Virus record (IMG/VR): IMGVR_UViG_3300009636_000004 | Span: 37,790-101,789 of that record | Direction: 5' to 3' (one strand) | Source of the DNA: a virus | DNA length: 64,000 nt | Shown here: piece by piece, positions 12,109 through 63,950 of the stretch | Layout of the letters: each line of letters begins with the position of its first letter | Numbering within the stretch: the stretch's first letter is position 1 | The notes under the pieces: generated by a model | Database searches by the model: none | Seen by the model: the letters and a program-made list of their open reading frames with translations, nothing else | Told to the model about the DNA's origin: nothing | Program-made: the position numbers and the translations under genes

Positions 12109-12136
12109 AGTATATCAGAGGATTATAAAAAGTCAA
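12109..12136 (-). promoter_or_regulatory. Leaderless-type promoter of pncB
   Basis: -35 TTGACT (12131-12136), 16 bp, extended -10 TGATATACT (hexamer 12109-12114). The start codon begins exactly 6 nt after the -10, so the normal start site falls on or next to the A of ATG. Confidence 0.82.
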
Positions 12137-12160
12137 GCGTAACGGAATAAGTAGAAGAAA

Positions 12161-12628
12161 TTAATCCCCATCTCCGCCGCCACCTGCATCACCGCCATCG
12201 GCATCAACATCGCCACCAACTTCTGCGGGTTCAGTTCCGATTTCAATGCCTTCCATTTCATCCAAGTTGTCTATTTCTGATTCACCAAGGTCTGTAGTAT
12301 CAACTTCTTCATCTCCAAGGTCTTCCAGAGCTTCTTTGGTAGCTTTAAGCAATTCTTTCGGTAAAGTTGTAGATTTCAACCATTTTAGTGAAGAAAAGGA
12401 ACGGGTTGCTATGGGTGAAGATGCGTATGAATATGCATTGGTATTTATCACTATTACATACCAATACATTAAATTGGTTGAAGTATCAGTATGAAGGAGT
12501 TTGTAACAATGAATCGTCTCTTTTGCTGGCAATTTGTGGCGATTTATATCACAACCACTGAAAATGACCGTCATAAGAGCAAGAAATGCTAGGAACAATA
12601 GGATTAGTATAGTACGTTTTGTTTTCAT
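12161..12628 (-). CDS. Predicted lipoprotein with acidic C-terminus, 155 aa
   Basis: Charged start KTKR, a hydrophobic stretch (6-22) and the lipobox VIFSGC (about 21-26) indicate a lipid-anchored exported protein. The C-terminal third is extremely acidic and Gly/Asp-rich. It follows the methyltransferase gene by 1 nt. Phage lipoproteins can act in superinfection exclusion, but no family is recognised here. Confidence 0.65.
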   Translation of the reverse strand: MKTKRTILILLFLAFLALMTVIFSGCDINRHKLPAKETIHCYKLLHTDTSTNLMYWYVIVINTNAYSYASSPIATRSFSSLKWLKSTTLPKELLKATKEALEDLGDEEVDTTDLGESEIDNLDEMEGIEIGTEPAEVGGDVDADGGDAGGGGDGD

Positions 12629-12629
12629 A

Positions 12630-13409
12630 TTAATTTCGTTTTAGAATTAGTTTTATGTGTGTCGGGTCTTTGATTTCAATACCTGTGTCATCTTTGACGG
12701 TTTGTAAAATGTAAGGAAGAATATAATGTTCGTGAAATATTACATCATATTCTTTTGGTATCTTTGCTAATAAATTTTCTCTTGATACTGGCAGGTAGTT
12801 CTCTCTTACCTCTCTATCCCAGTTTGGTTCAAGGTATTTGTATTTTAGCAAAAAATGGATTAACTGGCGGTTACTTTCAATACTACCCCAAATACTTTCA
12901 AAATCATTTAGAACTTTTTTGTCAAGGAATTTATGATAGATTTTCTTTACGTCATTAACATTTGAAGGCCTATCAATAGAACGGCTTGGAACCATATCCC
13001 GAATGACAACGTATTCAAAGCCAGTGTCAAACACTTTCTTCCAAAAATCATCAATTTCTGCCTTGCTGAAATAATGACAAATTTCATGGATAACCGAACT
13101 TAAAATAAGAGCAGCTTTTGCCCAATGTGGAATTTGCTGTTCGACAAACTTCCAGTCGTTTGTAATTCTAATAGCTGCAGTAGAATTTTTTCTTATTTCA
13201 GTTATCATTTTAACATTACTATCATATCCAATACCACAAATGTTTCCTTTTAACGATTGAATATGATTAAGGAGAGAACCATCACCACAACCGAAATCAA
13301 CGAAAATATCGGGATTTATTTTGTCAATGAAGAATAGCTTATCAATTATTGAAAGTTCCATACGGCCATTGTAGGTCGCATAATCTTTGATTGGTTGTAA
13401 TTCATTCAT
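12630..13409 (-). CDS. Class I SAM-dependent methyltransferase, 259 aa
   Basis: Motif I FVDFGCGDGSLL (about 36-47) is followed by an acidic GIGYDSN (about 60-66) that would bind SAM ribose, and LILSSVIHEICHYF in the motif IV region. The fold resembles small-molecule or tRNA methyltransferases of the Methyltransf_25 type. Substrate unknown. Confidence 0.72.
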   Translation of the reverse strand: MNELQPIKDYATYNGRMELSIIDKLFFIDKINPDIFVDFGCGDGSLLNHIQSLKGNICGIGYDSNVKMITEIRKNSTAAIRITNDWKFVEQQIPHWAKAALILSSVIHEICHYFSKAEIDDFWKKVFDTGFEYVVIRDMVPSRSIDRPSNVNDVKKIYHKFLDKKVLNDFESIWGSIESNRQLIHFLLKYKYLEPNWDREVRENYLPVSRENLLAKIPKEYDVIFHEHYILPYILQTVKDDTGIEIKDPTHIKLILKRN

Positions 13410-13418
13410 CGTAACAAT

Positions 13419-13446
13419 ATTTTACCACAAGGATATAAAAAGTCAA
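13419..13446 (-). promoter_or_regulatory. Promoter for methyltransferase/lipoprotein genes
   Basis: -35 TTGACT (13441-13446), 16 bp, extended -10 TGGTAAAAT (hexamer 13419-13424). The start codon is 9 nt downstream of the -10. Confidence 0.75.
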
Positions 13447-13451
13447 GCGTA

Positions 13452-15179
13452 TTACTTTCTTTTAATTTGATGAATAGTGTTACCATTGATAAAGAAAACT
13501 CCATCGGGTGTAGAAAACAGTTTCATTGAATTATCAAAAGGAGCATCCTTCAATACTTCTACATGCTGATTATTGACAAACATTTCCAAATCGCCATCTT
13601 CATTAAGTAATAGACATACTCCGTTTTCCATGACCGCGAAATTTATAGTATTCACGGTTACATCTTCTACTTTGCGAACGTCAAAATCACTATAATCTTT
13701 TTTGAATACAATTATGAATTTGTCATATTTACCATTCTTTTCTGCTATAATTACAGTAACGGTTTTTTCAGATTTAGCATCTACCACTCTATATCCATCT
13801 AATTGAGGAATATGTTTGCTAAAACAACCATCTTCTTTGTATGGTAATGTTAATAGATAATTACCTAATAAATTTTGAATAGCACATCCTTCATAAACGG
13901 TAGTAGCATAGACCGAAACGTTTTCTATTTCATTTACACGATGAATAATTCTATCACCCATTGCGGTAAATTTGTTTTTTACCAACTTACCATTACCACT
14001 CATGGTATAGACACAGTTATTTCTTACAAAAATATCTTTGCTGGCAATAGTTCCAACTTCTCTTTGCCTGTTTAATTCAGTAAAAGTGACTTTAGTGCCA
14101 GATAAACTAGCAACAATGATAGTCCCATCTGAAGCCGGACAAAGGAGAGTTTTTCTTACTTTTTCACAACCACTCATGAGTTCTTTATCATCACAATAAA
14201 TCTTCTTGGTTGTAACAACGTGATTCAAGCCCATTGATTGAATAACACTTACAATGTTTTCACTATAAGCAGCTACTTGGATAACATCAATTTGATTGTT
14301 ACCTTTAATAGTAACAATAGCAGCCGGAACTGTAAGAGGCGCTAGACTATCTGGTAAGGGTGGAACACTTCGTTCATTTCTAAGAAATATTGCCTCATAC
14401 CAATCATAGTGTCTTTTAGGTATTACGTTGAAACTATTGACACTCGGGGGAACTTTTACACCACGATGGAAAACACTGATACCATCATCCATTTGTTTCT
14501 GTTTGTCTTTAGGTTTATAATGTGGATGTCCGCCCCTAAACGGATGAATATTAGTATATAACCAAAAACTTAATATGCCCCACGAAAACCAATCTGAAAG
14601 AATGTCAGGATTATATATAAGTTTTCCATTGACGTGTGTTGACACTCTCCTATCTCTTACACTATCCATAATGGCGGTGGCCTTAAAGCTTGGAGTTGCA
14701 TAACTGTCAACATCAATAAAATACGGTGTCAAGACTGTTGGGGTGAGATTCACCAACACATTAAGCTCATTAAAATCAACAATCAAACAATGAGCGCCGT
14801 GAATGTCATTGGTAGTCAACTGCAATTGTTTAACCAATTCTGCAATCATTTGCGGGTCAATATTGTTGTCTTGTTTAAAGGTGCGGGTAAATAATTTTAA
14901 TAAAGGTTCAACATTATCAATATAATTGGCTATATAACCTAATGGGTCACCAGAACTTGCATCAAAAATCAAATCTTGTGGAACTACCACGTGCGGGTCA
15001 GTAATGAGTGATAATTCTTGTATCTTTCTTAAAGGTAGTGTTTTGTGAGAATCATGATAAATCTTGAAAACTTTTCCACCGTTGACATAAATGGATGCTT
15101 CACCACCAGCCGCTTTATAATATTTGTCAGTAAGAGTAAATATTCCGCCCCTACTTCCTATTTTGACTTTTTTATTCAT
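13452..15179 (-). CDS. Protein kinase-like protein with C-terminal repeat domain (TerY-P triad kinase)
   Basis: Residues 15-260 form a protein kinase-like domain: Gly-rich GGEASIY (25-31), Lys39 in KVFKIY, catalytic-loop equivalent IVDFNELNVLV (Asp135, Asn140), DFG equivalent FIDVDSY (Asp156) and DWFSWGILSFWLYTNIHPF as helix F-like region. Residues 290-575 show repeated short beta strands, compatible with a beta-propeller sensor. Together with the PP2C and vWA genes upstream it forms the kinase/phosphatase/vWA set called the TerY-P triad in tellurite-resistance-type stress systems. The fusion to a propeller-like region is unusual. Confidence 0.75.
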   Translation of the reverse strand: MNKKVKIGSRGGIFTLTDKYYKAAGGEASIYVNGGKVFKIYHDSHKTLPLRKIQELSLITDPHVVVPQDLIFDASSGDPLGYIANYIDNVEPLLKLFTRTFKQDNNIDPQMIAELVKQLQLTTNDIHGAHCLIVDFNELNVLVNLTPTVLTPYFIDVDSYATPSFKATAIMDSVRDRRVSTHVNGKLIYNPDILSDWFSWGILSFWLYTNIHPFRGGHPHYKPKDKQKQMDDGISVFHRGVKVPPSVNSFNVIPKRHYDWYEAIFLRNERSVPPLPDSLAPLTVPAAIVTIKGNNQIDVIQVAAYSENIVSVIQSMGLNHVVTTKKIYCDDKELMSGCEKVRKTLLCPASDGTIIVASLSGTKVTFTELNRQREVGTIASKDIFVRNNCVYTMSGNGKLVKNKFTAMGDRIIHRVNEIENVSVYATTVYEGCAIQNLLGNYLLTLPYKEDGCFSKHIPQLDGYRVVDAKSEKTVTVIIAEKNGKYDKFIIVFKKDYSDFDVRKVEDVTVNTINFAVMENGVCLLLNEDGDLEMFVNNQHVEVLKDAPFDNSMKLFSTPDGVFFINGNTIHQIKRK

Positions 15180-15182
15180 CCG

Positions 15183-15404
15183 TTATAGTCCCTGTAATTT
15201 ATCTTTGTATCTTTCATGGGCGTTATCAATCATTGAACCCCAGCAATCGGCCAACGCATCACTGTAAATTTTTAGTATTTCATCTTGTGTGAATTTATAT
15301 CCACATTCATCACATTCTTCACTCCAGTCAACCATGTGTTCACCCACATCAACTTCAGCAGTGATTTGTTCATCACATTTTGGACAATGAAAGGAGTAAT
15401 ACAT
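15183..15404 (-). CDS. Zinc-ribbon protein, 73 aa
   Basis: Two Cys pairs, CPKC (8-11) and CDEC (35-38), form a single zinc ribbon; the rest is acidic and helical. It sits 3 nt before the kinase gene, inside the triad operon, so it may be an accessory factor. No family recognised. Confidence 0.6.
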   Translation of the reverse strand: MYYSFHCPKCDEQITAEVDVGEHMVDWSEECDECGYKFTQDEILKIYSDALADCWGSMIDNAHERYKDKLQGL

Positions 15405-24599: not shown

Positions 24600-24627
24600 A
24601 TTTTATCACCAAGTTATAAATTGTCAA
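24600..24627 (-). promoter_or_regulatory. Promoter for zinc-ribbon/coiled-coil/coaD genes
   Basis: -35 TTGACA (24622-24627), 16 bp, extended -10 TGATAAAAT (hexamer 24600-24605). Confidence 0.75.
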
Positions 24628-25394: not shown

Positions 25395-25422
25395 ATTATA
25401 TCAGAATTGTATAAGAAGTCAA
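25395..25422 (-). promoter_or_regulatory. Promoter for the 250 aa gene
   Basis: -35 TTGACT (25417-25422), 16 bp, perfect extended -10 TGATATAAT (hexamer 25395-25400). The -35 lies over the last codons of nadE. Confidence 0.8.
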
Positions 25423-27509
25423 GCGTTACTTCCACCAAGAACAATCGGTTTTTTGACAAATACTATGAGTTCTTCTAGTTCTTCCTCATATCCACCTGTA
25501 AGAATTGGTGTTCTACACCATGTTCGGGGGTCAAGATTATGGTCGTCCATGTGGAAACTCAAAGCATATCGTTCACGTTTCCATTGGTTCCTTGAAAACA
25601 ACTTAAAGAATTTGGTAATATCTTTGATTAATTGATTGTTATCATAATCAATCGAAATCCTCAATGATTGATAGATTTCAAGAGGCGTGTAACGGTTTTT
25701 TACAACCATCGTTTCAATCTTGTGTAATAACCAATAAGGCATTAAGTCATCTTCATCGGTCTGTTTGTAGCTTGCTGGACGAAGTTCAGCCGTAGGCTGT
25801 TGTTCAACAATAGCATACATCTCCGTTGTTGGGCCAATGTTTCTTGGACCGGTATAGGCAACCCAAGCTAAAAATTCACGGATATAAACCTTTGGTAATC
25901 CAGCGATAGGTGCTACACTTCCTGCGGTGTCACCATCCATTGTTGCGTAACCAACTGCCGCTTCTGACATATTGCTTGTCGTCAATAATAGAGTTCCCTT
26001 CATATTGGCAATCATCCAAATGCCGGGAGCGCGAACACGAGCTTGAAGATTCTGTAAAACAATATCATTTTCTTCAAAGGTCAATTCACTTCCCTTGACA
26101 ATTTTACCTAGATTCTTATAATTCTTTACCATCGGTTCAACGTCAAATTCATAATGAGGAATATTTAGAGCTTTCGCCAATCCCTTAGCGGCGTTTCTTG
26201 TAATTTCTCCACTCTGAGCTGTTGATTGATAAGCGGTAGTAATTAAAGATTTAGTAATTCTGCGAATAAATTCATTTTCTGTTTTAGCATTGACGATATT
26301 AAAAATTCCATCATTTTTAACGTGAGGACAATATTTTTCAATAAATCCCACCACTCCCAATTCTTTTACTCCAAGATGAATTCCCATAGCACAAAGATAT
26401 ATCACCATTGCCGAATCGGCTCCACCACTTAACGAAATAGTAAAACCTTTCGTGTGACTCTTTCTCATGTAATCCATCAAAGCTAACCCAAGAGCACGAA
26501 CACATTCTTCATGTTTTACAAAGCCGGTAGAAAATTTATCTATTTCCCATTCCTCTTGTTCTGGACTGGTCGTAAGTTGTTCTGTAATAGTAGGATACCT
26601 GAAATCAACCTTAACACAACCTTGATTGTATTGTTCAATATTTGGTTGAAAACTTGCTGTGCGAACTTGTGAAGTTCGTGTATTATCAACATCAATAACT
26701 GCTGTGGTTAATAAAACATTCTTATAAGTAAAACGTTTTCCAATAGCTACCAAAGAACCACCTGTAGCAATTAAAGCTCCACCGTCATAAATTGCCCGTC
26801 CGGCTTCATTACCAACAAGATTAGCATAAACGTATGTAGCTCCAAATGCTCGTGAACCGTCAACAACGAAATTTTTTCGTGTGTTTAGTTTATTAAAAGA
26901 AAAGTGTGAGGCACTAGGATTGAGATAAATATCAACTCCCTTGGTAGCCAAAACTGTTCCCGGTCTATTGGCAACCCAAGCATCTTCACAAATTTCATAT
27001 CCGATTTTGATGCCTCCAATATTAAAATGAATATCACCAATAGGAAAATCTCCACCAAGTTCAGGAATATTTATAATTTGGACTATACCAGATGGCCAAG
27101 GTTTATACCAACGATTTTCGTAATGAATACCATCACCAGCCAAGTGTTGTTTACAAGTAAATCCTACAACTTTTCCATAGACTACAGTGGCAACAGTATT
27201 GTAAAGAGTGTTATTGAATCTTACAGGTAACCCAATACAAACAATTAAGTTGTCACATAAACGATTATATCCATTTGTATTAGGAGTGTTTATAATCTCT
27301 TTCAATTTTATCATCGCTCTATGAGAAACATCAGAGCAGAAAAGGTCATCTTCCATTCCATAGCCTGTGATGGTCGCTTCAGGAAGGCAAAGAATAGTAA
27401 CATTTTCATTTTTAGCTGTTTTAATTGCTTCAAGAATATTAGCCATATTCCCCTTCCAATCACGGGGAGTTTGATTCAATACCGCAGCAGCAACTTTAAT
27501 CAGCTTCAT
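25419..27509 (-). CDS. nadE: Glutamine-dependent NAD+ synthetase
   Basis: Makes NAD+ from nicotinate adenine dinucleotide, ATP and glutamine. The N-terminal nitrilase-type glutaminase (about 1-290) shows the E-K-C triad: CLPEATITGYG, TCKQHLAGDG and GYEICEDAWV. The C-terminal synthetase (about 330-690) has the PP-loop ISLSGGADSAM and the NaAD site TSNMSEAAVGYATMDGD. 696 aa, the normal size of two-domain NadE. This last step needs no host amidotransferase because the glutaminase is fused. Leaderless-type promoter 6 nt upstream. Confidence 0.96.
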   Translation of the reverse strand: MKLIKVAAAVLNQTPRDWKGNMANILEAIKTAKNENVTILCLPEATITGYGMEDDLFCSDVSHRAMIKLKEIINTPNTNGYNRLCDNLIVCIGLPVRFNNTLYNTVATVVYGKVVGFTCKQHLAGDGIHYENRWYKPWPSGIVQIINIPELGGDFPIGDIHFNIGGIKIGYEICEDAWVANRPGTVLATKGVDIYLNPSASHFSFNKLNTRKNFVVDGSRAFGATYVYANLVGNEAGRAIYDGGALIATGGSLVAIGKRFTYKNVLLTTAVIDVDNTRTSQVRTASFQPNIEQYNQGCVKVDFRYPTITEQLTTSPEQEEWEIDKFSTGFVKHEECVRALGLALMDYMRKSHTKGFTISLSGGADSAMVIYLCAMGIHLGVKELGVVGFIEKYCPHVKNDGIFNIVNAKTENEFIRRITKSLITTAYQSTAQSGEITRNAAKGLAKALNIPHYEFDVEPMVKNYKNLGKIVKGSELTFEENDIVLQNLQARVRAPGIWMIANMKGTLLLTTSNMSEAAVGYATMDGDTAGSVAPIAGLPKVYIREFLAWVAYTGPRNIGPTTEMYAIVEQQPTAELRPASYKQTDEDDLMPYWLLHKIETMVVKNRYTPLEIYQSLRISIDYDNNQLIKDITKFFKLFSRNQWKRERYALSFHMDDHNLDPRTWCRTPILTGGYEEELEELIVFVKKPIVLGGSNA

Positions 27510-27515: not shown

Positions 27516-27543
27516 AGGATATCAGAGTTATTATATTTGTCAA
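27516..27543 (-). promoter_or_regulatory. Leaderless-type promoter of nadE
   Basis: -35 TTGACA (27538-27543), 16 bp, extended -10 TGATATCCT (hexamer 27516-27521); ATG begins 6 nt after the -10, as at pncB. Confidence 0.8.
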
Positions 27544-28319: not shown

Positions 28320-29177
28320 TTATATTGATGAAGTTGGTGTACTGATTGTATTATCCATTAATGTTTCAGTCTCTTCTACAACAAATATTGGAGTTATAGG
28401 ATTAGTAGTAACATTAGCATTGATATAATTAGAATAAACAAAACCGCCATTAATTCCTACCGTTGCTGGTTCTTGTGGAGGTATTACAAAGTCATCAACA
28501 TGAGTACATCTACCACTATCAACAGAAATTGGTTCGGGCACCGGCCTTGGGTAATGATAATCTTCACTCATTATTTCTTTGGGAGATAATTTAGAATTTT
28601 TTGCAACATTAAGCATCAATTCATCAAAACGCTTTTGCTGGTCAAATGGAATCTTAAATCCTTTTGCAAGATACTTTTTTAAATGGAAAGCTGTAGCAGT
28701 AGTATCACGAACATCATTAAACCTTATTGCTCTATTTTTTAAATCATCAAAGGCAGTGTCACCTGTATAAAGTCGTTGTCCATCAAAGCCAAATTGACAA
28801 ACAGTAAAATCAAATCCACTAAGCAATTCTTCAATACTATTACAAAGTCTGAATGAAATAAGTTGAACAGGGATTGTCTTATTATAACCCCTTTCACAAA
28901 TATGAAATCCAAACGTGATGTTGTATTTGTTTTGTTTTTCGGTTACAATATGATAAACATACGGAATGCTTTTAAATTTTCTTGCATATTCTTCATATTG
29001 AGATATGTCTTTGAAAAAGAAATCTATATCGCAATCAAGAGGTATATTCTCTATGGCTTTCCACACAGAGCCACCAGCCAACCAAGGACCCTTTTCTTCC
29101 AGCTTTGGTAAGTGTTTCAATATTCTGAATAACTCAGAATCTTGGTTTACGAAATTATGAAATTCTTCAACTCTCAC
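28320..29177 (-). CDS. Nucleotidyltransferase-fold protein, GTG start
   Basis: PWLAGGSVWKAI (about 34-45) followed by CDIDFFF (about 51-57) forms the GG(S)...DxD signature of Pol-beta-type nucleotidyltransferases, as in tRNA CCA-adding or antitoxin-like enzymes. The remaining 200 residues do not match a known partner domain. The GTG start at 29177 lies exactly 6 nt after a consensus -10, a leaderless arrangement with a non-ATG start. Confidence 0.68.
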   Translation of the reverse strand: MRVEEFHNFVNQDSELFRILKHLPKLEEKGPWLAGGSVWKAIENIPLDCDIDFFFKDISQYEEYARKFKSIPYVYHIVTEKQNKYNITFGFHICERGYNKTIPVQLISFRLCNSIEELLSGFDFTVCQFGFDGQRLYTGDTAFDDLKNRAIRFNDVRDTTATAFHLKKYLAKGFKIPFDQQKRFDELMLNVAKNSKLSPKEIMSEDYHYPRPVPEPISVDSGRCTHVDDFVIPPQEPATVGINGGFVYSNYINANVTTNPITPIFVVEETETLMDNTISTPTSSI

Positions 29178-29183: not shown

Positions 29184-29211
29184 ATTATACCACGATTTTA
29201 TAGAATGTCAA
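29184..29211 (-). promoter_or_regulatory. Leaderless-type promoter of the nucleotidyltransferase gene
   Basis: -35 TTGACA (29206-29211), 16 bp, extended -10 TGGTATAAT (hexamer 29184-29189), GTG start 6 nt downstream. Confidence 0.8.
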
Positions 29212-31327: not shown

Positions 31328-31531
31328 TTACTGGTGAGAGTGATATGATGCTCCAGTATCTTCACTTCCTTCTACATGAACGTCATTTTTTTCTAAGTGA
31401 ATTTTAATGATATTAGCAATACTCTTTTTCAATTCTTGAGAATCAAGTTCCATATTGGTTGTAAATCCATAATTTTCAAGAAGATTCAGAATATCTTCAG
31501 CTACTTGTTCGTAAGATATGATATTATCCAT
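31328..31531 (-). CDS. Small acidic protein, 67 aa
   Basis: Two helices, acidic, with a His-containing tail. Leaderless-type promoter: ATG 6 nt after the -10. Not recognised. Confidence 0.55.
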   Translation of the reverse strand: MDNIISYEQVAEDILNLLENYGFTTNMELDSQELKKSIANIIKIHLEKNDVHVEGSEDTGASYHSHQ

Positions 31532-31537: not shown

Positions 31538-31567
31538 ATTATATCACTACTCTACACACGGCGTCAA
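31538..31567 (-). promoter_or_regulatory. Leaderless-type promoter of the 67 aa gene
   Basis: -35 TTGACG (31562-31567), 18 bp spacer, extended -10 TGATATAAT (hexamer 31538-31543), start codon 6 nt later. Confidence 0.68.
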
Positions 31568-33684: not shown

Positions 33685-34267
33685 TAGACATTGCTTTTAA
33701 ATCCAATAATCGGTTTCTCAATTTCATAAATACTTGAAAAGTCAATTCAGTATCATATTTTGCATCATGCACTTTGTTTTCATCCAAAGGAATATTGAAA
33801 TATTGAGCCAACGAAGTTAAACTTCCACTTACGGTTTCAGGGAACATATTACATGCTTTAAGAAATTGACAAACTGCTGAAGTGTCCAATTTTCTGTAAG
33901 AAGTAAATTTTTCCCACGAACCAAGGCTCATTAAATGATAAGTAATCCATTCAACGTCACCATAAACGCCGTGGCCAACAACCGTAGCCTTAATCTTACC
34001 ATCGTCAGTTAAACCTTTAAGCCAGTTGTAAAGCTTGGTTCCACCTTCTTTATAAGTGATTGCTTTAGTGTCGTGAACCTTCAAGTCAATTCTGTTGACA
34101 TTCATCGCTTCACCGCAAACCTTGTAAATGCCATCATTTGGTTTCAAATAAAGATAGAGGTCGCCGATAACGTTAAAATTATCATCGGTAGCCAGCAAAT
34201 AGGTGGTTAAAAAAGAATAATTTTCTTTTTCAAGACCACCCATTTCGTTGTCCAAAAATAAATACAT
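33668..34267 (-). CDS. DnaQ-like 3'-5' exonuclease
   Basis: DEDD-type nuclease: MYLFLDNEMGG (ExoI DxE), VVGHGVYGDVEW (ExoII D) and VHDAKYDTELTF (ExoIII HxAxxD). The chosen start at 34267 begins at the first strand and lies 6 nt after a promoter -10. The frame stays open up to 34357, but that would include the promoter. About 199 aa, a stand-alone proofreading or RNase T-type exonuclease. Confidence 0.82.
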   Translation of the reverse strand: MYLFLDNEMGGLEKENYSFLTTYLLATDDNFNVIGDLYLYLKPNDGIYKVCGEAMNVNRIDLKVHDTKAITYKEGGTKLYNWLKGLTDDGKIKATVVGHGVYGDVEWITYHLMSLGSWEKFTSYRKLDTSAVCQFLKACNMFPETVSGSLTSLAQYFNIPLDENKVHDAKYDTELTFQVFMKLRNRLLDLKAMSSGLWG

Positions 34268-34273: not shown

Positions 34274-34302
34274 ATGATAACAGATATCTCTATAGAAGTC
34301 AA
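34274..34302 (-). promoter_or_regulatory. Leaderless-type promoter of the exonuclease gene
   Basis: -35 TTGACT (34297-34302), 17 bp, extended -10 TGTTATCAT (hexamer 34274-34279); ATG starts 6 nt after it. Confidence 0.78.
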
Positions 34303-36741: not shown

Positions 36742-37977
36742 TTATTTGTCATTCATGTAATTATTCCAATCAAGTCTAGCATAGTTAGGTTTTCCGTAAC
36801 CCGTTGTTCCATTAAAGATAATAGTAACTATTTCATTGATTATCTTCTTATATTCTTCTGTTTCCCATGCTTCGATAGCATCTTCTTCTTCACCTTTGAA
36901 GGTAGCATCAAATGTGTCTGTTCCATCTAAATATTTACCACCATCAATTCTTTGACAAGTGAAGGTAGCAATGCGACCAGCAAATTTTCCTACACCTTCT
37001 TGGATACTAATAACCTTAAATTCAGCATCATCAACAGGTTTATATTTCAAAAGATTTTTAGTTCTTTTGTTTTCGTAAGGCTGACCAAGAATACGAAGAA
37101 TTGCCCCTTCCTGTTTATTTTTAAGGAATTCTTGATAAAGTTTTTCAAGTTCTGCTTCGGAATAAACAATCCAAGTTGGAACTTTACCAATGATATCTTT
37201 CCACCTTTCAGCAAAACAAGGAGCAAAGAAAGCATTGTCAATTGCTGCCTTTCTTTCAAGATAATCAGCCGTGGAAGGAACTATTGCACCATCCTTTGAG
37301 GTTGGAAAGCCAAATCCGTCATAAACATAAAATCTAATTAGTTCCTTGCTTCTTTCCAAATCTTGTGGAGTAATATGAACAGTCTTGCGAAGAAGCGTCA
37401 TAATTATATTAAGTTTTGAACGAAGCTCATAATTGAAGCCTTCTCCATCAAGAACAGCATTGGAAAATTTTTGGAAAAATGGTTTAAGAGCTTCTTCAAT
37501 ATGAGGAATAGAAATATATTTTTCTCCTTTTCTTGAAAATAAACCATCTTTAGTAGCAACAATACGGCCACCATTATATTTGATTTGAACACCGACACCC
37601 TTTGACCAATCAATTTTATCCTTGTAATTAGGAAACCATTTTGCCAACATTACTTGAAAAAATCGTTCCTTATCAATGTCGTTTTTATCTTCCCAATATC
37701 CACCAGATTTTAATTGTTTTTTGTATTTGGATTGGATTTCTTTAGTAGCTTGGTCAACGGTAGTAGTTTCATTTATTCTGCCAGTATTCTTTCCTTCAGC
37801 AACAGTCCATGCAGCAATGACTTTCGCTCCGTCAATTTGACCTGATACTGAGCGATATTTTTCCCCCTCTTGTTCCATCCACCACACTTGAACTGCGCCG
37901 GTGCTCGTTCTAGCATATAGGGTTGGATACTTCTTTAGCTTTGCTGGGCGAGAAGGATCATCAAAAAAATCACTCAT
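36742..37977 (-). CDS. ATP-dependent DNA ligase with N-terminal WGR-like domain
   Basis: Residues 18-95 form a WGR-like domain (TLYARTSTGAVQVWWMEQEG and AEGKNTGRINETTTVDQA) of the type attached to some phage and bacterial ligases. The nucleotidyltransferase core starts at motif I KYNGGR (Lys133 is the adenylated residue; Asn replaces the usual Asp of KxDG). It continues with VLDGEGFN (motif III), EGAILRI (motif IV) and LLKYKPV (motif V), then an OB fold. 411 aa. The PARP at 6.2 kb also carries a WGR domain, so two DNA-end enzymes share this module. Confidence 0.9.
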   Translation of the reverse strand: MSDFFDDPSRPAKLKKYPTLYARTSTGAVQVWWMEQEGEKYRSVSGQIDGAKVIAAWTVAEGKNTGRINETTTVDQATKEIQSKYKKQLKSGGYWEDKNDIDKERFFQVMLAKWFPNYKDKIDWSKGVGVQIKYNGGRIVATKDGLFSRKGEKYISIPHIEEALKPFFQKFSNAVLDGEGFNYELRSKLNIIMTLLRKTVHITPQDLERSKELIRFYVYDGFGFPTSKDGAIVPSTADYLERKAAIDNAFFAPCFAERWKDIIGKVPTWIVYSEAELEKLYQEFLKNKQEGAILRILGQPYENKRTKNLLKYKPVDDAEFKVISIQEGVGKFAGRIATFTCQRIDGGKYLDGTDTFDATFKGEEEDAIEAWETEEYKKIINEIVTIIFNGTTGYGKPNYARLDWNNYMNDK

Positions 37978-37983: not shown

Positions 37984-38011
37984 ATAATATCACAATCATA
38001 TAAAAAGTCAA
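37984..38011 (-). promoter_or_regulatory. Leaderless-type promoter of DNA ligase
   Basis: -35 TTGACT (38006-38011), 16 bp, extended -10 TGATATTAT (hexamer 37984-37989); ATG 6 nt downstream. The remaining spacer to 38169 is AT-rich and holds no other signal I can see. Confidence 0.8.
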
Positions 38012-38622: not shown

Positions 38623-38999
38623 ACTTTTTCTTTCAACTTTGCTAATTCAGAAGCAAGAGCATTTCGTTCTTGTATAACTATGTCTGCTGCACACCAAGGT
38701 TCAAGACCGGGATGGCCAAGTCTTTTAGAAATATCTTCTTTTTCTTCCTTCCATCGTACTTCACAACGCAATTCATTTTTATCTGAATCTTCAGCAGCTT
38801 GTTTAATTGCACTTTGGAAATTCTTTACAGATTGCTCAAGCCAATGTGGTTCCCCATGTAGCATTTTTTCAGCATCTTGAACAACCCAAATAGCATGTGG
38901 AATTACTTGATTATAAAATTCAAAATTCTTCATGTGTTGCCGAATATCACCTTTAGCTTCGGCTAATTCTTTTTTTGTTCTTTCAAGTTCATTATCCAT
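38619..38999 (-). CDS. Hypothetical helical protein, 126 aa
   Basis: Helical and charged, with coiled-coil ends. It contains PGLEPWCAADIVIQERNALA, a phrase common in phage Ead/Ea22-like proteins. It overlaps the Pth2-like gene by 4 nt and follows a promoter by 7 nt. Confidence 0.58.
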   Translation of the reverse strand: MDNELERTKKELAEAKGDIRQHMKNFEFYNQVIPHAIWVVQDAEKMLHGEPHWLEQSVKNFQSAIKQAAEDSDKNELRCEVRWKEEKEDISKRLGHPGLEPWCAADIVIQERNALASELAKLKEKV

Positions 39000-39006: not shown

Positions 39007-39034
39007 AGCCTATCAGAGTTTTATAAAAAGTCAA
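39007..39034 (-). promoter_or_regulatory. Promoter of 126 aa/Pth2-like genes
   Basis: -35 TTGACT (39029-39034), 16 bp, extended -10 TGATAGGCT (hexamer 39007-39012); ATG 7 nt after the -10. Confidence 0.72.
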
Positions 39035-44768: not shown

Positions 44769-44796
44769 ATCTTACATCAATTAATAAAGAAGTCAA
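44769..44796 (-). promoter_or_regulatory. Promoter of AAA ATPase gene
   Basis: -35 TTGACT (44791-44796), 16 bp, -10 TAAGAT (44769-44774), TG motif one base out of register. Confidence 0.6.
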
Positions 44797-49147: not shown

Positions 49148-49193
49148 CCATTTACATGGTACATTATTATTTTAAAATGTCAAGCGTCTATTA

Positions 49194-50297
49194 TTATCGG
49201 TTAATATTGCTCAAAAAAAGTTTCTTGGTTTCCTCAAATGTTAAATGCGCAGCATCATCATAATACGTAGATTTAGAAATTAAACGATTTTCAGATTGTA
49301 ATTTAGTAAACCGCTTTATAGATGACACTTTCCACTGTTCCATTTGTTTGTCTAAATCTTTCAATTCCTGAATTAGTTCTAATTCGGATTCTTTTATTTT
49401 ACATTGAAGAAATTCATTACTATTTTTATACAGGGAAACATAATGAATTCCACGATGAATTCCATGATATATTAATTTATAGTTAATACCTAAATCTTTA
49501 CAAATTTTTTTCATTAATTCATCTTTATAACGGTCAGATGTTACATTATCCGACTTTTTTACTGGTGGATATTTAACTTTCCAATTGGTTAATACAATTT
49601 CAGGTAACTCTATGGGTACTTTCCCTGATGTTGTGCCTAAGTTTTTCCAAAATTTTAAACCCGTATATTGGCAAAAAGACCCATAAAGACTTGTAGTTGT
49701 CACTCCAACAACTGTATCACCATATTTTTCTTTCCATGCATTTCTAAAATAATCTGTTACAACAATTCTAGCAAGCAACTTTCCACCCAAACAATTATAA
49801 CCGAATGGTTGAAGAGGTACAAGAACTTGTGCATTCATTAAATTGTTTATTCGCTTATTTTTATATTTATGGTTGTTAGACCAACCTATGAAATTATCTC
49901 TAGCAGATAAAGACCCAATATCTCCAGCAATTGTTATCATACCAAGAAATTTACCTGTATTACTATTTTCTACAAGAAATGACATCTTCCTTCCGGGGTA
50001 ATTATTTTGAAGAGCAGAAGATGTAAATAACATGAAATTTTTGTATATACGATACAATTCTTCATCAGATTCATTTACAGGCAAGATTTTTATTTTTAGA
50101 TTTTCTATTTCTTCTATAGTTTTTGGATTAGAAATCTGACTTTTGGAACGCATAAATGGCATAATTTCACTTACATGGTTCTGAATTTCATACCACTTAA
50201 TTTTTAAAGTGTATTCTTCTAATGATAAAGATTTTAATTCTTTAATTGTTGATAAAGTTTTATCTTCCAGTGGTTCTATAAAATCTAATAAATCCAT
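49194..50297 (-). CDS. DUF4338/DruA-like protein, 367 aa
   Basis: Central motifs GKFLGMITIAGDIGSLSARD then NFIGWS, VPLQPFGYNCLGGKLLARIV, YGDTVVGVTTTSLYG, YTGLKFWKNLGTTSGK follow the order seen in DUF4338 proteins. That family includes DruA of the Druantia anti-phage system and phage proteins; its chemistry is undetermined. Assignment by motif order only. Leaderless-type promoter. Confidence 0.55.
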   Translation of the reverse strand: MDLLDFIEPLEDKTLSTIKELKSLSLEEYTLKIKWYEIQNHVSEIMPFMRSKSQISNPKTIEEIENLKIKILPVNESDEELYRIYKNFMLFTSSALQNNYPGRKMSFLVENSNTGKFLGMITIAGDIGSLSARDNFIGWSNNHKYKNKRINNLMNAQVLVPLQPFGYNCLGGKLLARIVVTDYFRNAWKEKYGDTVVGVTTTSLYGSFCQYTGLKFWKNLGTTSGKVPIELPEIVLTNWKVKYPPVKKSDNVTSDRYKDELMKKICKDLGINYKLIYHGIHRGIHYVSLYKNSNEFLQCKIKESELELIQELKDLDKQMEQWKVSSIKRFTKLQSENRLISKSTYYDDAAHLTFEETKKLFLSNINR

Positions 50298-50303: not shown

Positions 50304-50332
50304 ACAATATCAAATGAAATATGTACAGTCAA
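50304..50332 (-). promoter_or_regulatory. Leaderless-type promoter of the DUF4338-like gene
   Basis: -35 TTGACT (50327-50332), 17 bp, extended -10 TGATATTGT (hexamer 50304-50309), ATG 6 nt downstream. Confidence 0.72.
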
Positions 50333-51982: not shown

Positions 51983-52192
51983 TTACCACACGTTTTTGTC
52001 AGTTATTAATTTTTTTAATAATTCATTAAGGTCATAGGAACATTTAGGTTCTTCTCCATCAAAGGATACTCCCAATGTAAACTTTCCATCAATGAAAATT
52101 TCCAACCTATGACTAAAATCGTCAGATGATTTTAACTTCTTTTTGCTCTTAAAGTAAGCATTTATCCTTCGTTTTGATGGTTCTTTTTTCAT
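51983..52192 (-). CDS. Hypothetical protein, 69 aa
   Basis: Basic N-terminus and a beta pair (RLEIFIDGKFTLGVSFDG). Leaderless-type promoter 6 nt upstream. Not recognised. Confidence 0.56.
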   Translation of the reverse strand: MKKEPSKRRINAYFKSKKKLKSSDDFSHRLEIFIDGKFTLGVSFDGEEPKCSYDLNELLKKLITDKNVW

Positions 52193-52198: not shown

Positions 52199-52227
52199 AT
52201 AATATCATAAAATCCTTGTATTGTCAA
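52199..52227 (-). promoter_or_regulatory. Leaderless-type promoter of the 69 aa gene
   Basis: -35 TTGACA (52222-52227), 17 bp, extended -10 TGATATTAT (hexamer 52199-52204), ATG 6 nt downstream. Confidence 0.75.
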
Positions 52228-52837: not shown

Positions 52838-52865
52838 TTGACATTTTTTAGGAATATGATAATAT
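52838..52865 (+). promoter_or_regulatory. Promoter of the plus-strand tRNA cluster
   Basis: -35 TTGACA (52838-52843), 16 bp, -10 TAATAT (52860-52865) with extended TGA. Mature tRNA-Gly begins 12 nt later. Confidence 0.72.
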
Positions 52866-52876: not shown

Positions 52877-52953
52877 GCAGAAGTAGCTCAGTCTGGTAGA
52901 GCGTCACGTTGCCAACGTGAATGTCGTGGGTTCGAATCCCATTTTCTGCTCCA
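52877..52953 (+). tRNA. tRNA-Gly(GCC)
   Basis: Acceptor GCAGAAG/TTTCTGC, anticodon arm TCACG-TTGCCAA-CGTGA, T-loop TTCGAAT, encoded CCA. Confidence 0.9.
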
Positions 52954-53169: not shown

Positions 53170-53257
53170 TGCGGGATGTCGGAAGCCCGGTCATCCGGCT
53201 GTGCTCATAACGCAGTGCCTTAGTGCCTCGCAGGTTCGAATCCTGCTCCCGCTACCA
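53170..53257 (+). tRNA. tRNA with CAT anticodon (Met, fMet or Ile2)
   Basis: Acceptor stem GCGGGA/TCCCGC with a possible unpaired first pair (T-T), anticodon arm CTGTG-CTCATAA-CGCAG giving CAT, T-arm GCAGG-TTCGAAT-CCTGC, encoded A-CCA. A mismatch at 1-72 is typical of initiator tRNA but here is T-T rather than C-A. The variable loop is long (about 14 nt). Confidence 0.7.
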
Positions 53258-55271: not shown

Positions 55272-55299
55272 TTGACTTCTGTTAAGTCTATGATATAAT
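55272..55299 (+). promoter_or_regulatory. Leaderless-type promoter of RNA ligase
   Basis: -35 TTGACT (55272-55277), 16 bp, extended -10 TGATATAAT (hexamer 55294-55299); ATG exactly 6 nt later. Confidence 0.85.
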
Positions 55300-55305: not shown

Positions 55306-56355
55306 ATGACAAAATCGGCAACAATAGAAAAAATTCATAGTATTAAACCCCATCCAAATCCAGAAGTAACAAAAATTGAGATTGGTATGGTGAAAGCATG
55401 GCCTGTTGTTGTTCCCAAAGGACAATTTAAAGACGGTGATTTGGTAATATTCATACAAATTGATAGCATAGTTCCAAAAGAAAATCCTTATTTCTCCTTT
55501 ATGGAGCGTCAACATTACCGTGTTTGGAATGCTAAATTTAAGAAAGCTCCAAGTCAAGGATTAGTTTGTCCTCTTTCTATTTTACCGGTAAAATCAGGTT
55601 TTGATAATGATGGTGATGAACATGAAATAGATGTATCGATTTGGGAAGAAGGCGATGATGTTACAGAAATTCTTGGTATAATTAAATATGAGAAACCACT
55701 TGATTTAAGTATATGTGGTGATGTTAGAGGTGGATTTCCTACACATTTAATTCCAATCACTGATGAAGATAATTTATTAAATAATCCAACAGTTCTTAAT
55801 GAATTTATGGGAGAGGAATGTTATCTTACAGTGAAGGTTGATGGTTCTTCTATGACTGTAATCCATGAAAATAGCGAAGTTCGTGTTTGTAGCCGCAAAC
55901 TAGAACAAAAAGAAGGAACAGGATTTTGGAAGATTGCTGAAAAATATGATTTACCAAACAATCTAAAAAAGTTGGGTAAAAATATTGCCATTCAAGCAGA
56001 AGCTTGTGGTGGAAAAATTCAAGGAAATCCATTAGGTCTTTTGGAACCTATGCTATATGTGTTTAATATAAAAGAATTGGATACAGGTAAATGGTATGGT
56101 TGGAAAGAAATAAAAGATGCATGCAATACTTTAAATATTCCAGCCGTTTCATTAGTTTATGACCCTTTTATATTTGATGATACATGGACTATTGAAAAAC
56201 TCCAAAAAATAGCAAATACAATTATATATTACATTAAACCAAATAGAGAAATGAAATATGGAGAAGGAATAGTTCTTCGTCCAACAAAACCAAAATATTC
56301 TTCTATCCTTGGCAAGCTATTGTCAGTTAAAATATTAAATCAGGAATACAAATAA
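55306..56355 (+). CDS. RNA ligase, Deinococcus Rnl (Rnl5)-like
   Basis: The N-terminal 90 residues form an OB-fold-like region (IHSIKPHPNPEVTKIEIGMV, DGDLVIFIQ). The ligase core begins at motif I LTVKVDGSS with Lys177 to be adenylated, continues with EVRVCSRKLE (motif Ia-like), IAIQAEACG (motif III/IIIa), GEGIVLRP (motif IV) and LLSVKILN (motif V). The N-terminal OB before the core is the layout of DraRnl, which seals 3'-OH/5'-P nicks in RNA or RNA-DNA hybrids. First gene of an operon with a cREC protein and a polynucleotide kinase: an RNA repair set. Confidence 0.9.
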   Translation: MTKSATIEKIHSIKPHPNPEVTKIEIGMVKAWPVVVPKGQFKDGDLVIFIQIDSIVPKENPYFSFMERQHYRVWNAKFKKAPSQGLVCPLSILPVKSGFDNDGDEHEIDVSIWEEGDDVTEILGIIKYEKPLDLSICGDVRGGFPTHLIPITDEDNLLNNPTVLNEFMGEECYLTVKVDGSSMTVIHENSEVRVCSRKLEQKEGTGFWKIAEKYDLPNNLKKLGKNIAIQAEACGGKIQGNPLGLLEPMLYVFNIKELDTGKWYGWKEIKDACNTLNIPAVSLVYDPFIFDDTWTIEKLQKIANTIIYYIKPNREMKYGEGIVLRPTKPKYSSILGKLLSVKILNQEYK

Positions 56356-60210: not shown

Positions 60211-60702
60211 ATGGAAAATGAAGTAATTGATATAGAAGCAGCAGTAATACCAGAAAATGAACCTACAGATAAAACGTTAAAACTCATTGATGAACTTAAT
60301 GAAAAAGTTTCCAACGATAGTGGAGAATGGATTTATGTTAAAGAAGTGGGTGGAATATGTTGGCATCCACTATCCGATTTACCAGCAGTACCATCCCCAC
60401 CAAACCCCCCTCCCCTATTAGGGGATATAGTCAAATGGGGTAATACATTGAATTTTGACAATATTCCACAAAATGCTGTGGTATTGGTTAAATTAAAAAT
60501 TGATGACCCATTTCGTATTCAGATGATGCAGCGCATTATTACTAAACAGGTTTTTGAACCAAGAATAGAAAAATTAAAAGAAAAACATGTTTGTATTTTG
60601 TTTATGCAATCTGATGATGACATTTCAATAATGCCCGAAGAAGATATGGAAAGAGCAGGATGGGTTAAAAAAGAACCTAGTAGAATCATTACTCTCTCAT
60701 AA
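60211..60702 (+). CDS. Hypothetical protein, 163 aa
   Basis: The N-terminus is acidic; a Pro-rich stretch sits near residue 60-72 (VPSPPNPPPLLGD). The C-terminal half is mixed alpha/beta. Ends with TAA overlapping the next ATG. Not recognised. Confidence 0.58.
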   Translation: MENEVIDIEAAVIPENEPTDKTLKLIDELNEKVSNDSGEWIYVKEVGGICWHPLSDLPAVPSPPNPPPLLGDIVKWGNTLNFDNIPQNAVVLVKLKIDDPFRIQMMQRIITKQVFEPRIEKLKEKHVCILFMQSDDDISIMPEEDMERAGWVKKEPSRIITLS

Positions 60703-60914
60703 TGACTAAAATTATTAAAACTGTTAAAAGATATTGTGAACACTGTGGCGCAGAAAATGTTCTTATCTCACAATCCATAGAAGATGGAAAAATAATTATT
60801 TATATTAATCAGATACAAAGATGTTTTTATTGTAAAAAGGAAAATAATTTTATTTTAGACGAAAAAACATACGAAGAAATGGACAAACTAATAGCTGAAT
60901 TTGTTGACGCTTGA
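60702..60914 (+). CDS. Zinc-ribbon protein, 70 aa
   Basis: YCEHCGAEN and CFYCKKEN form one zinc ribbon. The start overlaps the previous stop (ATAATGACT) and its stop lies within the next gene's promoter. Likely nucleic-acid binding. Confidence 0.6.
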   Translation: MTKIIKTVKRYCEHCGAENVLISQSIEDGKIIIYINQIQRCFYCKKENNFILDEKTYEEMDKLIAEFVDA

Positions 60915-60938
60915 CTTTTATAATTACTGTGTTATCAT
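60911..60938 (+). promoter_or_regulatory. Leaderless-type promoter of the phosphoesterase gene
   Basis: -35 TTGACT (60911-60916), 16 bp, extended -10 TGTTATCAT (hexamer 60933-60938); ATG 6 nt later. Confidence 0.8.
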
Positions 60939-60944
60939 TATAGA

Positions 60945-61772
60945 ATGAAGTATCTAATATTACCAGATGTCCACAATCGTTGGGAAAAAGTAGAGAAAAT
61001 CATCAAATCAGTAAAGCCCGATAAGACGATTTTTCTTGGCGATTATTTTGACGATTTCGGGGATAATCCGCATATCATTGCAGATGTGGCCGATTGGTTT
61101 CATCATTCTGTGAACCAAAAAGACCGTGTTCATGTTTGCGGAAATCACGACCTTCATTATTGGTTCAAAGATAATAAGAACATGCGTTGTTCTGGTTACG
61201 AACAATTCAAATCTGTAACTATTAATGATTTTGTTACTAAACAGGACTGGGAAAAGTTAAAATTTTTCTATATTCTTGATAACCGATGGTTATTAAGTCA
61301 TGCAGGTGTTCATCCAAGTTGGATAGAATCATCAAAATTTAAGCCAAATGTAATAAGTGAATATTCTCTTCGTGCTATCAATCGGAGATTAATCGGTGAA
61401 TCTGCTGAAGCGAAAAAATTATTTTATGCAAACAGTATGCATTGGTTTGCTATGCCGGGATTTTCTAGGTCTAGTTGTCCTTATTATGGTGGTATCACAT
61501 GGTGCGATTGGAATAATGAATTTCATCCTATTCGTGGTATTCATCAAATAGTAGGTCATACTCCTGATTTTAAACTTACTTGGCATATTGTTGATGAAAA
61601 TGAAAGTAGCTTCAAGACTCTTTCTTTAGAAGAAGTGTCTAATCCAATATTAACGGATAAAAATTCTTACAATTTATGTTTGGATTTTCATCCCGGCTCC
61701 AAATATTATGCTATTTATGAAAATAAACAACTTACAATACATGAAGCAGACGATATACACGAAAAGATATAA
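60945..61772 (+). CDS. Calcineurin-like metallophosphoesterase, 275 aa
   Basis: LILPDVHNRW (DxH), FLGDYFDDFG (GDxxD), CGNHDLHYWF (GNHD), LSHAGVHPSW and IVGHTPDF (GHT) give the full phosphatase core of Ser/Thr phosphatase-type metalloenzymes (PrpE/lambda phosphatase-like). Could oppose the protein kinase at 13.5-15.2 kb or act on cyclic phosphates. The second phosphoesterase of the window. Confidence 0.88.
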   Translation: MKYLILPDVHNRWEKVEKIIKSVKPDKTIFLGDYFDDFGDNPHIIADVADWFHHSVNQKDRVHVCGNHDLHYWFKDNKNMRCSGYEQFKSVTINDFVTKQDWEKLKFFYILDNRWLLSHAGVHPSWIESSKFKPNVISEYSLRAINRRLIGESAEAKKLFYANSMHWFAMPGFSRSSCPYYGGITWCDWNNEFHPIRGIHQIVGHTPDFKLTWHIVDENESSFKTLSLEEVSNPILTDKNSYNLCLDFHPGSKYYAIYENKQLTIHEADDIHEKI

Positions 61773-62361
61773 ATATTTAATTTTATTTGTTATATCTTTT
61801 TTGTATTGTTTAATAATAGGAGGACAAACAGTGATTCTTACTCCTATACAAGAAGATAATCTTAGGACTATATATGGAATAGCACCTTTTGCTTGTGGTT
61901 GGGGGTATGGTGGTGTTATTAACTCATCGTCTTATCCGATGGAAGATAGGACAATTATTGATTTTGACCTGAGTAGTATTTCAGCTACATCTGTTTCAAA
62001 CGCGACATTAACATTTTTTATTCAAAATCAGCAAAATGGTGAAAAATCAATTATAGATATATTTACTTTTTATGATGAATCAACGATTCAGACAAATGAT
62101 TGGAATGAAGGAATATTTTATCAAAGTTTTGGGGATGATTATGGTATTCACACTTTAGATTTGACTTCTGCAGTGCAATCCGCAATTAATGCTGGCCATA
62201 ACTTTCTTAATTTACGAATGTCAACTCTTACCACTAATAGCTCTTACTTCATTATTGACCCTCCTTGGAGGGGGACACGTTTAAATTTGACGGTAATTTC
62301 TATTCCCGGATTAACAAATTCTTTACTCTTCCCCCCATTAAATTTAAGAATATTGAATTAA
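61741..62361 (+). CDS. Exported DNRLRE-like beta-sandwich protein
   Basis: Starting at ATG 61741, a signal peptide (KQTIYTKR then hydrophobic YLILFVISFLYCLIIGG). The remainder resembles DNRLRE/carbohydrate-binding jelly-roll repeats (IIDFDLSSISATSVSNATLT, DWNEGIFYQSFGD, LDLTSAVQSAINAGHNFLNL, FNLRMST-like end). Such domains occur in secreted surface proteins. Secretion by a phage-coded protein suggests a role at the host surface. The frame is open upstream to 61708 inside the phosphoesterase gene. Confidence 0.66.
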   Translation: MKQTIYTKRYKYLILFVISFLYCLIIGGQTVILTPIQEDNLRTIYGIAPFACGWGYGGVINSSSYPMEDRTIIDFDLSSISATSVSNATLTFFIQNQQNGEKSIIDIFTFYDESTIQTNDWNEGIFYQSFGDDYGIHTLDLTSAVQSAINAGHNFLNLRMSTLTTNSSYFIIDPPWRGTRLNLTVISIPGLTNSLLFPPLNLRILN

Positions 62362-62395
62362 TATTAATGCCGTGCGGGTTTTTATATTTTTGGTA

Positions 62396-62423
62396 TTGAC
62401 ATTTCTTTTAGAAGTAGTATAAT
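62396..62423 (+). promoter_or_regulatory. Promoter of the HNH endonuclease gene
   Basis: -35 TTGACA (62396-62401), 16 bp, -10 TATAAT (62418-62423). The leader to the start codon is about 53 nt, so this is not leaderless. Confidence 0.8.
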
Positions 62424-62482
62424 TATAATGTAACATTAAAACTAAAATATATAACCATATGAAATAGAACAACAAAGATAAT

Positions 62483-63145
62483 ATGAGCATCATTAACAGA
62501 ACGCAGGTCTTAAAGTTAAATAAAGCTTGGCAAGCTGTGGGTCAATCCACCGTTGGTAAAGCTTTGGTTGACTTGGCTGCGGGTAAATGCGCTTTGGCGC
62601 TTGACATTGAATATGAAAAGAATGAAAGGGGCGAATACATTCTTGATGAAAATGATTGGCCGTCTGGTCAATCATGGCCTCGTCCTGTGACTTGGGAAGA
62701 ATGGATTACATTGCCTGTTCGTCCTTTTGATGATGCTATTCATTATGGTAGAAATGGTGAAAAAACTATAAGAGCTCCCACAGTCATTATTGCTAAAAAC
62801 TTTGCTAGGATGCCAAAGAAAACTTTCAAAGGCAAACCATCCAAGGATGCTATTTGGATTCGTGATGGTGGTATTGACCAATACACTGGTAAAAAATTAA
62901 GACGTGATGAAGCTACCATTGACCACGTTATTCCTCAATCTAGGGGTGGTCAACACACTTGGGAAAATCTTGCCTTAACAGCTAAGGAAATTAATTCCAA
63001 GAAAGGTAATAAGCTTAATAATGAAATTGGTTTGAAATTAATTCGTGAACCGAAAGCTCCACGACCTATTCCTTTATCTAATTTAATTAGAGAAGTGAAA
63101 CACCCAGATTGGAAGCCACATCTTCCGCATTTGGTTGAAGATTAA
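62483..63145 (+). CDS. HNH endonuclease, 220 aa
   Basis: An N-terminal VLKLNKAWQAVG and a core CGD-less HNH: GGIDQYTGKKL, ATIDHVIPQSRGGQHTWEN, LALTAKEINSKKGNK. The IDHVxPxSxGGxxxWxNLxLxxxxxNxxKGN pattern is typical of cellular and phage HNH nucleases, but the first Cys pair of the zinc site is absent (YTGKKL instead of CxxC). Transcribed alone and followed by a strong terminator. Confidence 0.85.
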   Translation: MSIINRTQVLKLNKAWQAVGQSTVGKALVDLAAGKCALALDIEYEKNERGEYILDENDWPSGQSWPRPVTWEEWITLPVRPFDDAIHYGRNGEKTIRAPTVIIAKNFARMPKKTFKGKPSKDAIWIRDGGIDQYTGKKLRRDEATIDHVIPQSRGGQHTWENLALTAKEINSKKGNKLNNEIGLKLIREPKAPRPIPLSNLIREVKHPDWKPHLPHLVED

Positions 63146-63156
63146 AATAATAAACA

Positions 63157-63182
63157 AAAACCCCCGTGAAAACGGGGGTTTT
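63157..63182. terminator. Bidirectional terminator
   Basis: AAAACCCCCGT-GAAA-ACGGGGGTTTT between convergent genes; the best terminator in the window. Confidence 0.9.
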
Positions 63183-63204
63183 GATTTTTTGTGTATAAAC
63201 AATC

Positions 63205-63915
63205 TTAAATTGTTTTGTTTGCAGTAGTCTTCTTGGAAGTTTTTACAGACGTTTTAAGCTGTGTGTCTGCATCTTTGGGTGAAAAACTAAATCTTGTACC
63301 CTTAGCAGCAGCACGATAGCTTGTAACACTTCTATCTAAAGTATCAAAAGCTACAGCAGTCCCTTCCGAATCTGCTACATAGTTAAGCGTAGTACCTTTC
63401 ATGTATCCCATGCTTGACCCTACCGCCCAAGAATCCTGATTAGCACCAATATAAGCAAAATCCCAATTGTATTTATTTCTTTGATGTTCAACCATTTCCT
63501 TTACACTATCGGAATCGTATTTAATAGCATCTTCGGGTTTTTCCAAATGGTCATTATCTTCACCGTCAGTGATAGTGACTATTAAAACTTTTTCAGGTCT
63601 TTCCTCTTCGGGCATAGCAGTTAAACGAACTCCAATATCGTTAATGGTTTTGCCAAGGGAATCATAGAGAGCAGTATTGCCTCTTGGAATATAATTATTT
63701 CTATCCAAAAGAGGAACTTGATTCAAGTCAATATTTTCGAACATTGTTTCATATTCGGTATCAAATTTATAAGCAAAAACACGGCAATCACCGAGTTTAG
63801 CTTCCTGTTGTGTCTTGATGAATGAATTAAATCCACCAATCATGTCGTTGCAAATTATGTGCATTGAACCTGAACGGTCAATGACAAATATAATATATGT
63901 AAGTCCACTTTTCAT
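63205..63915 (-). CDS. Stand-alone vWA-domain protein, 236 aa
   Basis: MIDAS FVIDRSGSMH (DxSGS, about 12-16), the Thr of the NTALYDSLG loop (about 79-87) and IVTITDGEDND (about 110-120) make a complete metal site. The C-terminal tail is Lys/Thr-rich. Related to the TerY-like protein at 16.6 kb by fold only. A leaderless-type promoter precedes it and no PP2C or kinase is adjacent within the window. Confidence 0.85.
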   Translation of the reverse strand: MKSGLTYIIFVIDRSGSMHIICNDMIGGFNSFIKTQQEAKLGDCRVFAYKFDTEYETMFENIDLNQVPLLDRNNYIPRGNTALYDSLGKTINDIGVRLTAMPEEERPEKVLIVTITDGEDNDHLEKPEDAIKYDSDSVKEMVEHQRNKYNWDFAYIGANQDSWAVGSSMGYMKGTTLNYVADSEGTAVAFDTLDRSVTSYRAAAKGTRFSFSPKDADTQLKTSVKTSKKTTANKTI

Positions 63916-63921
63916 ATTATA

Positions 63922-63950
63922 AGGATACTATAATCTAACAATGATGTCAA
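63922..63950 (-). promoter_or_regulatory. Leaderless-type promoter of the vWA gene
   Basis: -35 TTGACA (63945-63950), 17 bp, -10 TATCCT (63922-63927); ATG 6 nt downstream. The -10 matches that of nadE. Confidence 0.7.

Follow-up and report, generated by a model that had tools for sequence, protein, structure and literature searches.

Does a phage whose promoters end at a fixed distance ahead of its start codons make mRNAs that begin with the start codon itself? The question is raised by a 64,000-nt stretch of viral DNA (the window), bases 37790-101789 of a 101,789-bp record (the 102-kb contig, G000). The initial annotation named 11 genes in the window whose -10 hexamer ends 6 nt before the start codon, held that such spacing could not arise by chance, and read their mRNAs as leaderless.

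The phage behind this contig is more fully represented by IMGVR_UViG_3300038424_000251 (G001; 365,299 bp), which is near-identical and carries the window in reverse orientation. Gene products of G001 include a T4-type family B DNA polymerase, a DnaB-like helicase, ribonucleotide reductase, rIIA/rIIB and a T4-type major head protein; on this basis, we regard the window as part of a T4-like jumbo phage. Since G000 belongs to the same phage as G001, the independent replicates are two diverged relatives, G002 (214,733 bp; NadE identity 76%) and G003 (102,170 bp; 73%). G004, a 435-kb phage whose NadE is 45% identical, and the nearest isolated phage, Microcystis phage Mel-JY01 (PolB 44%), served as outgroups. 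Genes and start codons came from a simple purpose-made gene caller. Megablast against phages returned no matches. A genome scan with pncB found only 30%-identity Roseomonas matches and the best plasmid matches of NadE were to Bacteroidota (44%), neither being decisive for the host.

The promoters in question are of the sigma70 type, with the consensus cGCTTGACW, a spacer of 16 (less often 17) bp, and TGnTAnnnT. Of the motif described in the initial annotation, the TTGACW -35 element, the 16/17-bp spacing and the upstream GC were retained, but the extended -10 element proved to be TGnTAnnnT, and not mostly TGnTATAAT. Scoring with a weight matrix derived from the strongest sites yielded some 50 promoters for the 102-kb contig, compared to 1-4 expected in shuffled sequence, and strong promoters numbered 127 in G001, 142 in G002 and 37 in G003.

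Each of the 11 named genes has such a promoter, and in all 11 the -10 hexamer ends 6 nt before the start codon. On the minus strand these are pncB (promoter 12109..12136, -10 TATACT, ATG at 12102), nadE (27516..27543, TATCCT, ATG at 27509), the nucleotidyltransferase gene (29184..29211, TATAAT, GTG at 29177), a 67-aa gene (31538..31567, spacer 18, TATAAT, ATG at 31531), the exonuclease gene (34274..34302, TATCAT, ATG at 34267), DNA ligase (37984..38011, TATTAT, ATG at 37977), a DUF4338-like gene (50304..50332, TATTGT, ATG at 50297), a 69-aa gene (52199..52227, TATTAT, ATG at 52192) and the vWA protein gene (63922..63950, TATCCT, ATG at 63915). On the plus strand they are RNA ligase (55272..55299, TATAAT, ATG at 55306) and the phosphoesterase gene (60911..60938, TATCAT, ATG at 60945). 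The 6-nt spacing is kept in the G002 orthologs of pncB and DNA ligase and in the G002 and G003 orthologs of nadE and the exonuclease gene, while the distance is 8 nt for the phosphoesterase orthologs of both relatives. The exonuclease start at 34267 is internal to the longest open reading frame, and ortholog alignments that begin at residue 1 support it.

Other window genes had been placed at 7 or 9 nt. Both distances were found, and so were 8 and 11 nt. All of these promoters lie on the minus strand: 39007..39034 (7 nt to the ATG at 38999), 49156..49183 (8 nt, 49147), 7498..7525 (9 nt, 7488, a PARP-domain gene), 13419..13446 (9 nt, 13409), 24600..24627 (9 nt, 24590), 44769..44796 (9 nt, 44759, an AAA ATPase) and 25395..25422 (11 nt, 25383). 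The predicted leader is 3 nt for the promoters at 7498, 13419 and 24600, and 5 nt for that at 25395. Several further promoters in the window either stand 19-59 nt away from a start or serve tRNAs; one of the same class (52838..52865, plus strand) precedes a tRNA array whose first gene begins at 52877.

Two gene sets in the window deserve mention in their own right. Positions 6211-12102 and 25419-27509 hold an NAD-related set comprising a PARP-domain protein with WGR, PRPP synthetase, pncB and nadE; with an A predicted at +1 of their mRNAs, NAD-capping of these transcripts is conceivable. At 1743-4173, an Amidoligase_2 protein adjoins a class-II glutamine amidotransferase-like protein.

We measured the spacing from the end of the -10 element to the closest ATG with an open reading frame of at least 25 codons. 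This ATG stood at exactly 6 nt for 13 of the 48 promoters in the 102-kb contig (P=2e-13), 35/127 in G001 (P=4e-36) and 60/142 in G002 (P=2e-74), against a rate of 1.3-1.6% for random positions. The view that the spacing is not due to chance was therefore correct. Counted genome-wide, the 6-nt peak persisted in G001 and G002 and, weakly, in G003, where 5 of 37 promoters had this distance and the peak was broad (6, 7 and 9 nt) with few sites. Distances of 5, 6 and 7 nt occurred 0, 35 and 4 times in G001, and 4, 60 and 4 times in G002. Because distances of 4 and 5 nt are almost empty while 7 and 8 nt are low, the spacing is exact rather than merely close. GTG or TTG at exactly 6 nt adds 5 promoters in G001 and 6 in G002. 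Secondary peaks were observed at 9 nt (18, 7 and 5 promoters in G001, G002 and G003, respectively) and, in G001, at 11 nt (12 promoters). When the whole collection was scanned for other phages with this signature, matches were scattered at 1-6 per contig, compared with 75 in G001 and 95 in G002.

These distributions bear on whether the short distance is simply a by-product of genome compaction, with promoters squeezed against genes and leaders kept minimal. The genomes are indeed dense, coding density being 81-92% among the contigs compared, and some promoters reach into the gene before them. Compaction, however, predicts a broad shoulder and not the spike at exactly 6 nt seen in G001 and G002, and G004 lacks the spacing pattern despite a similar density (88%). 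We consider this explanation very improbable.

Comparison of orthologs indicates what has been conserved. The distance from -10 to start was identical in 13 of 26 ortholog pairs, compared to 7.1 by shuffling (p=0.002). In the ten pairs in which both members have 6 nt, the -10 element kept T1, A2 and T6 without exception and varied in its middle, and the six bases between the -10 element and the ATG agreed in only 19 of 60 comparisons. Thus, the length of the 6-nt interval is conserved, but its letters are not. In protein alignments of the 6-nt pairs, both partners align from residue 1 or close to it, which supports the assigned start codons.

Where transcription begins was estimated from promoters lacking a start codon 3-14 nt downstream. 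Among these, the sixth base after the -10 element was a pyrimidine in 28/38 cases in G001 and 30/38 in G002, and the seventh was a purine in 27/38 (p=0.005) and 30/38 (p=3e-4), respectively; G003 gave no such signal among 12 sites, which are too few to test. A pyrimidine-purine step is the classical transcription initiator, and the pattern therefore points to +1 at the seventh base, which in the 6-nt class would be the A of the ATG. The seventh base was also A in 14/18 of the 9-nt class and 9/12 of the 11-nt class of G001, whose transcripts are predicted to carry leaders of 3 or 5 nt, such as AUU or ACAAU. A recurrent CACAATATG lies between the -10 element and the ATG in the 11-nt class of G001, giving the predicted leader ACAAU. 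For about 30% of the strong promoters, no start codon occurs at 3-14 nt, indicating that leadered transcripts also exist.

The start region favors a pyrimidine-A step, as a transcription start would, and ATG at +1 might then be only a favored initiator of transcription and not a start of translation. Yet first ATGs at distance 6 opened at least 25 codons in 35/35 cases in G001 and 60/61 in G002, compared to 34% and 42%, respectively, of all ATGs. Moreover, ortholog alignments begin at that methionine, and where no gene start follows a promoter, this position carries a purine, not ATG. We therefore find it hardly credible that these ATGs serve transcription alone, an even poorer prospect than compaction.

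The initial annotation had also noted that most of these genes lack Shine-Dalgarno (SD) sequences, and this extends to the genomes as a whole: AGGAG, GGAGG and related motifs were near background before genes of G001-G003, and equally absent in clade members with PolB identities down to about 55%. In contrast, G004 and Mel-JY01 displayed a clear SD peak 4-12 nt upstream of genes and were without the clade's sigma70-type promoters. Given the genome-wide absence of SD motifs, operon-internal genes must likewise initiate without SD pairing. T occupies position -1 in 67-70% of genes in G001-G003, compared to 32-37% in G004 and Mel-JY01; initiator tRNA could pair through its A37 with a U at -1. A phage-encoded ribosomal protein bS21 was considered as a cause of the SD loss and rejected, as it is absent from G001-G003 and present in G004, W01 and W02.

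Why the clade should have this organization is a separate matter. The host itself may be SD-poor and rich in leaderless genes, with the phage copying its signals. This would account for the origin of the arrangement and does not conflict with leaderless mRNAs. Actinobacteria and Deinococcus-Thermus have leaderless genes in abundance, and SD sites are sparsely used by many Cyanobacteria and Bacteroidetes (PMC3160421). The promoters are of the host sigma70 type, and no protein with sigma70 region 4 was found in G001-G003. Mel-JY01, the nearest isolate, nevertheless uses SD sequences and lacks these promoters, so that copying of host signals would be insufficient if the clade infects a similar host. 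We judge its chances to be about even. The lack of any Sigma70_r4 protein in G001-G003 also led us to reject a phage-encoded sigma70-type factor.

Genes without a sigma70-type promoter, both structural and other, were found to have a second motif, TATTTATA. It occurs 31 times in G001 compared to 4.8 expected, concentrated 3-7 nt before ATG, and it recurs in G002 and G003, with the class kept in 14 ortholog pairs. Most of its G001 sites fall in the structural and replication regions (roughly 0-57, 103-115 and 258-365 kb), and most sigma70-class promoters in 116-300 kb. TATTTATA is the reverse complement of TATAAATA, the late promoter of phage T4, which consists of one short AT-rich element some 5 nt ahead of +1. 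The T4 element itself was not found before late genes, where TATTTATA stands instead. No match to a gp55-like late sigma factor was obtained with phrog_234 or phrog_12791, searches that a very diverged factor could escape. TATTTATA is probably a late promoter with the same start-codon geometry as the sigma70 class; by analogy with the geometry in T4, we infer that its transcripts would also begin at or beside the ATG.

The genomes also carry tRNA genes with initiator-like features. The tRNA(CAU) in the window (53170..53257, plus strand) has an unpaired U1:U72 and is initiator-like in that respect only. A second, at G001:237603-237679, has an unpaired A1:A72 and is identical to an E. coli-type initiator tRNA at 67 of 77 positions; a further one at G002:64589-64673 belongs to the same group with U1:U72 or A1:A72 unpaired. 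Some members of this group have a long variable arm. The three consecutive G:C pairs that a standard bacterial initiator has in its anticodon stem, next to the loop, were found neither in the window tRNA, which has a T:G pair there, nor in that of G001, which has A:T and a flipped C:G, and an initiator role for these tRNAs is thus only possible. G001 holds about 53 tRNA genes, most of them within 260388-295096, and a tmRNA, covering nearly all amino acids. Both G001 and G002 have a tRNA with a CTA (amber-type) anticodon; recoding of TAG was rejected, as TAG is a rare ordinary stop (21/471 genes) and no readthrough pattern was seen in either genome.

Based on the spacing peak, the +1 signature, the conservation of length and the absence of SD sequences, all read from sequence, we put at roughly 85% the probability that this clade uses leaderless or near-leaderless transcription genome-wide, including the second promoter class. 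The proposal of leaderless mRNAs is supported by sequence for the 6-nt class, but the 9- and 11-nt classes imply leaders of 3 and 5 nt, and a minority of promoters long leaders. In the mechanism that we propose, host-type sigma70 promoters (GCTTGACW-16/17-TGnTAnnnT) would be placed such that transcription opens with the A of ATG or the G of GTG or, alternatively, 3 or 5 nt ahead of the start codon. Transcription would be carried out by the host sigma70 holoenzyme, and 70S ribosomes with initiator tRNA would probably recognize the 5'-terminal AUG directly, without SD pairing. Direct ribosome binding to a 5'-terminal AUG has been described for leaderless mRNAs (PMC9031893). Abundant initiator tRNA would favor such initiation; operon-internal genes would have to rely on AT-rich context and the U at -1; and the probably late motif TATTTATA would repeat the same geometry 3-7 nt before its genes. 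A more ambitious hypothesis is that the clade has dropped SD sequences wholly and shifts the infected cell to leaderless initiation in both the early and the late phase, with the aid of initiator-like tRNAs of its own, phage mRNAs then outcompeting those of the host on non-dissociated 70S ribosomes. We regard this hypothesis as unlikely, albeit less so than compaction.

Leaderless translation in phages is usually regarded as a curiosity. If our main reading is true, this lineage represents a natural test of how far non-SD initiation can carry a large viral program. The promoter end plus 6 nt would also provide a rule for annotating start codons and transcription starts in uncultured phages from sequence, and the host might be traced with the aid of the promoter and U(-1) signatures. 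A literature search, mostly outside subscription journals, found no report of an SD-free phage genome with two leaderless-placed promoter classes. Leaderless starts are known for single phage genes, and as a genome-wide phage strategy they appear to be unreported.

The clade shares with T4 a short AT-rich element near +1 and the T4-type major head protein, but differs from it in the motif TATTTATA and in that no gp55 relative was detected. In the leaderless cI mRNA of phage lambda, a 5'-terminal AUG is translated without SD (PMC9031893), although this concerns a single gene. Thermus phage P23-45 has extended -10 middle and late promoters, and its gp39 displaces host sigma region 4 (PMC7403470). 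The likeness to our clade lies in phage extended -10 promoters used with host RNA polymerase, which for the clade is inferred; in the same scan, 59% of P23-45 genes were preceded by SD-like motifs, and TAnnnT stood at 6 nt only 3 times. In Deinococcus-Thermus and Actinobacteria, leaderless genes have a TANNNT -10 element next to the reading frame (PMC12340547, PMC3160421). This element, standing a few bp ahead of the start codon, is the promoter and fixes the 5' end at the start, as is predicted for the clade. Those are, however, genomes of cells, and many of their genes retain SD sequences, whereas the clade consists of phages with a strong -35, an extended -10 and virtually no SD. Among phages, Cluster O mycobacteriophages have predicted leaderless SigA-like promoters, three per genome (PMC4351075), compared with which the present clade has dozens of such promoters per genome and a second promoter class.
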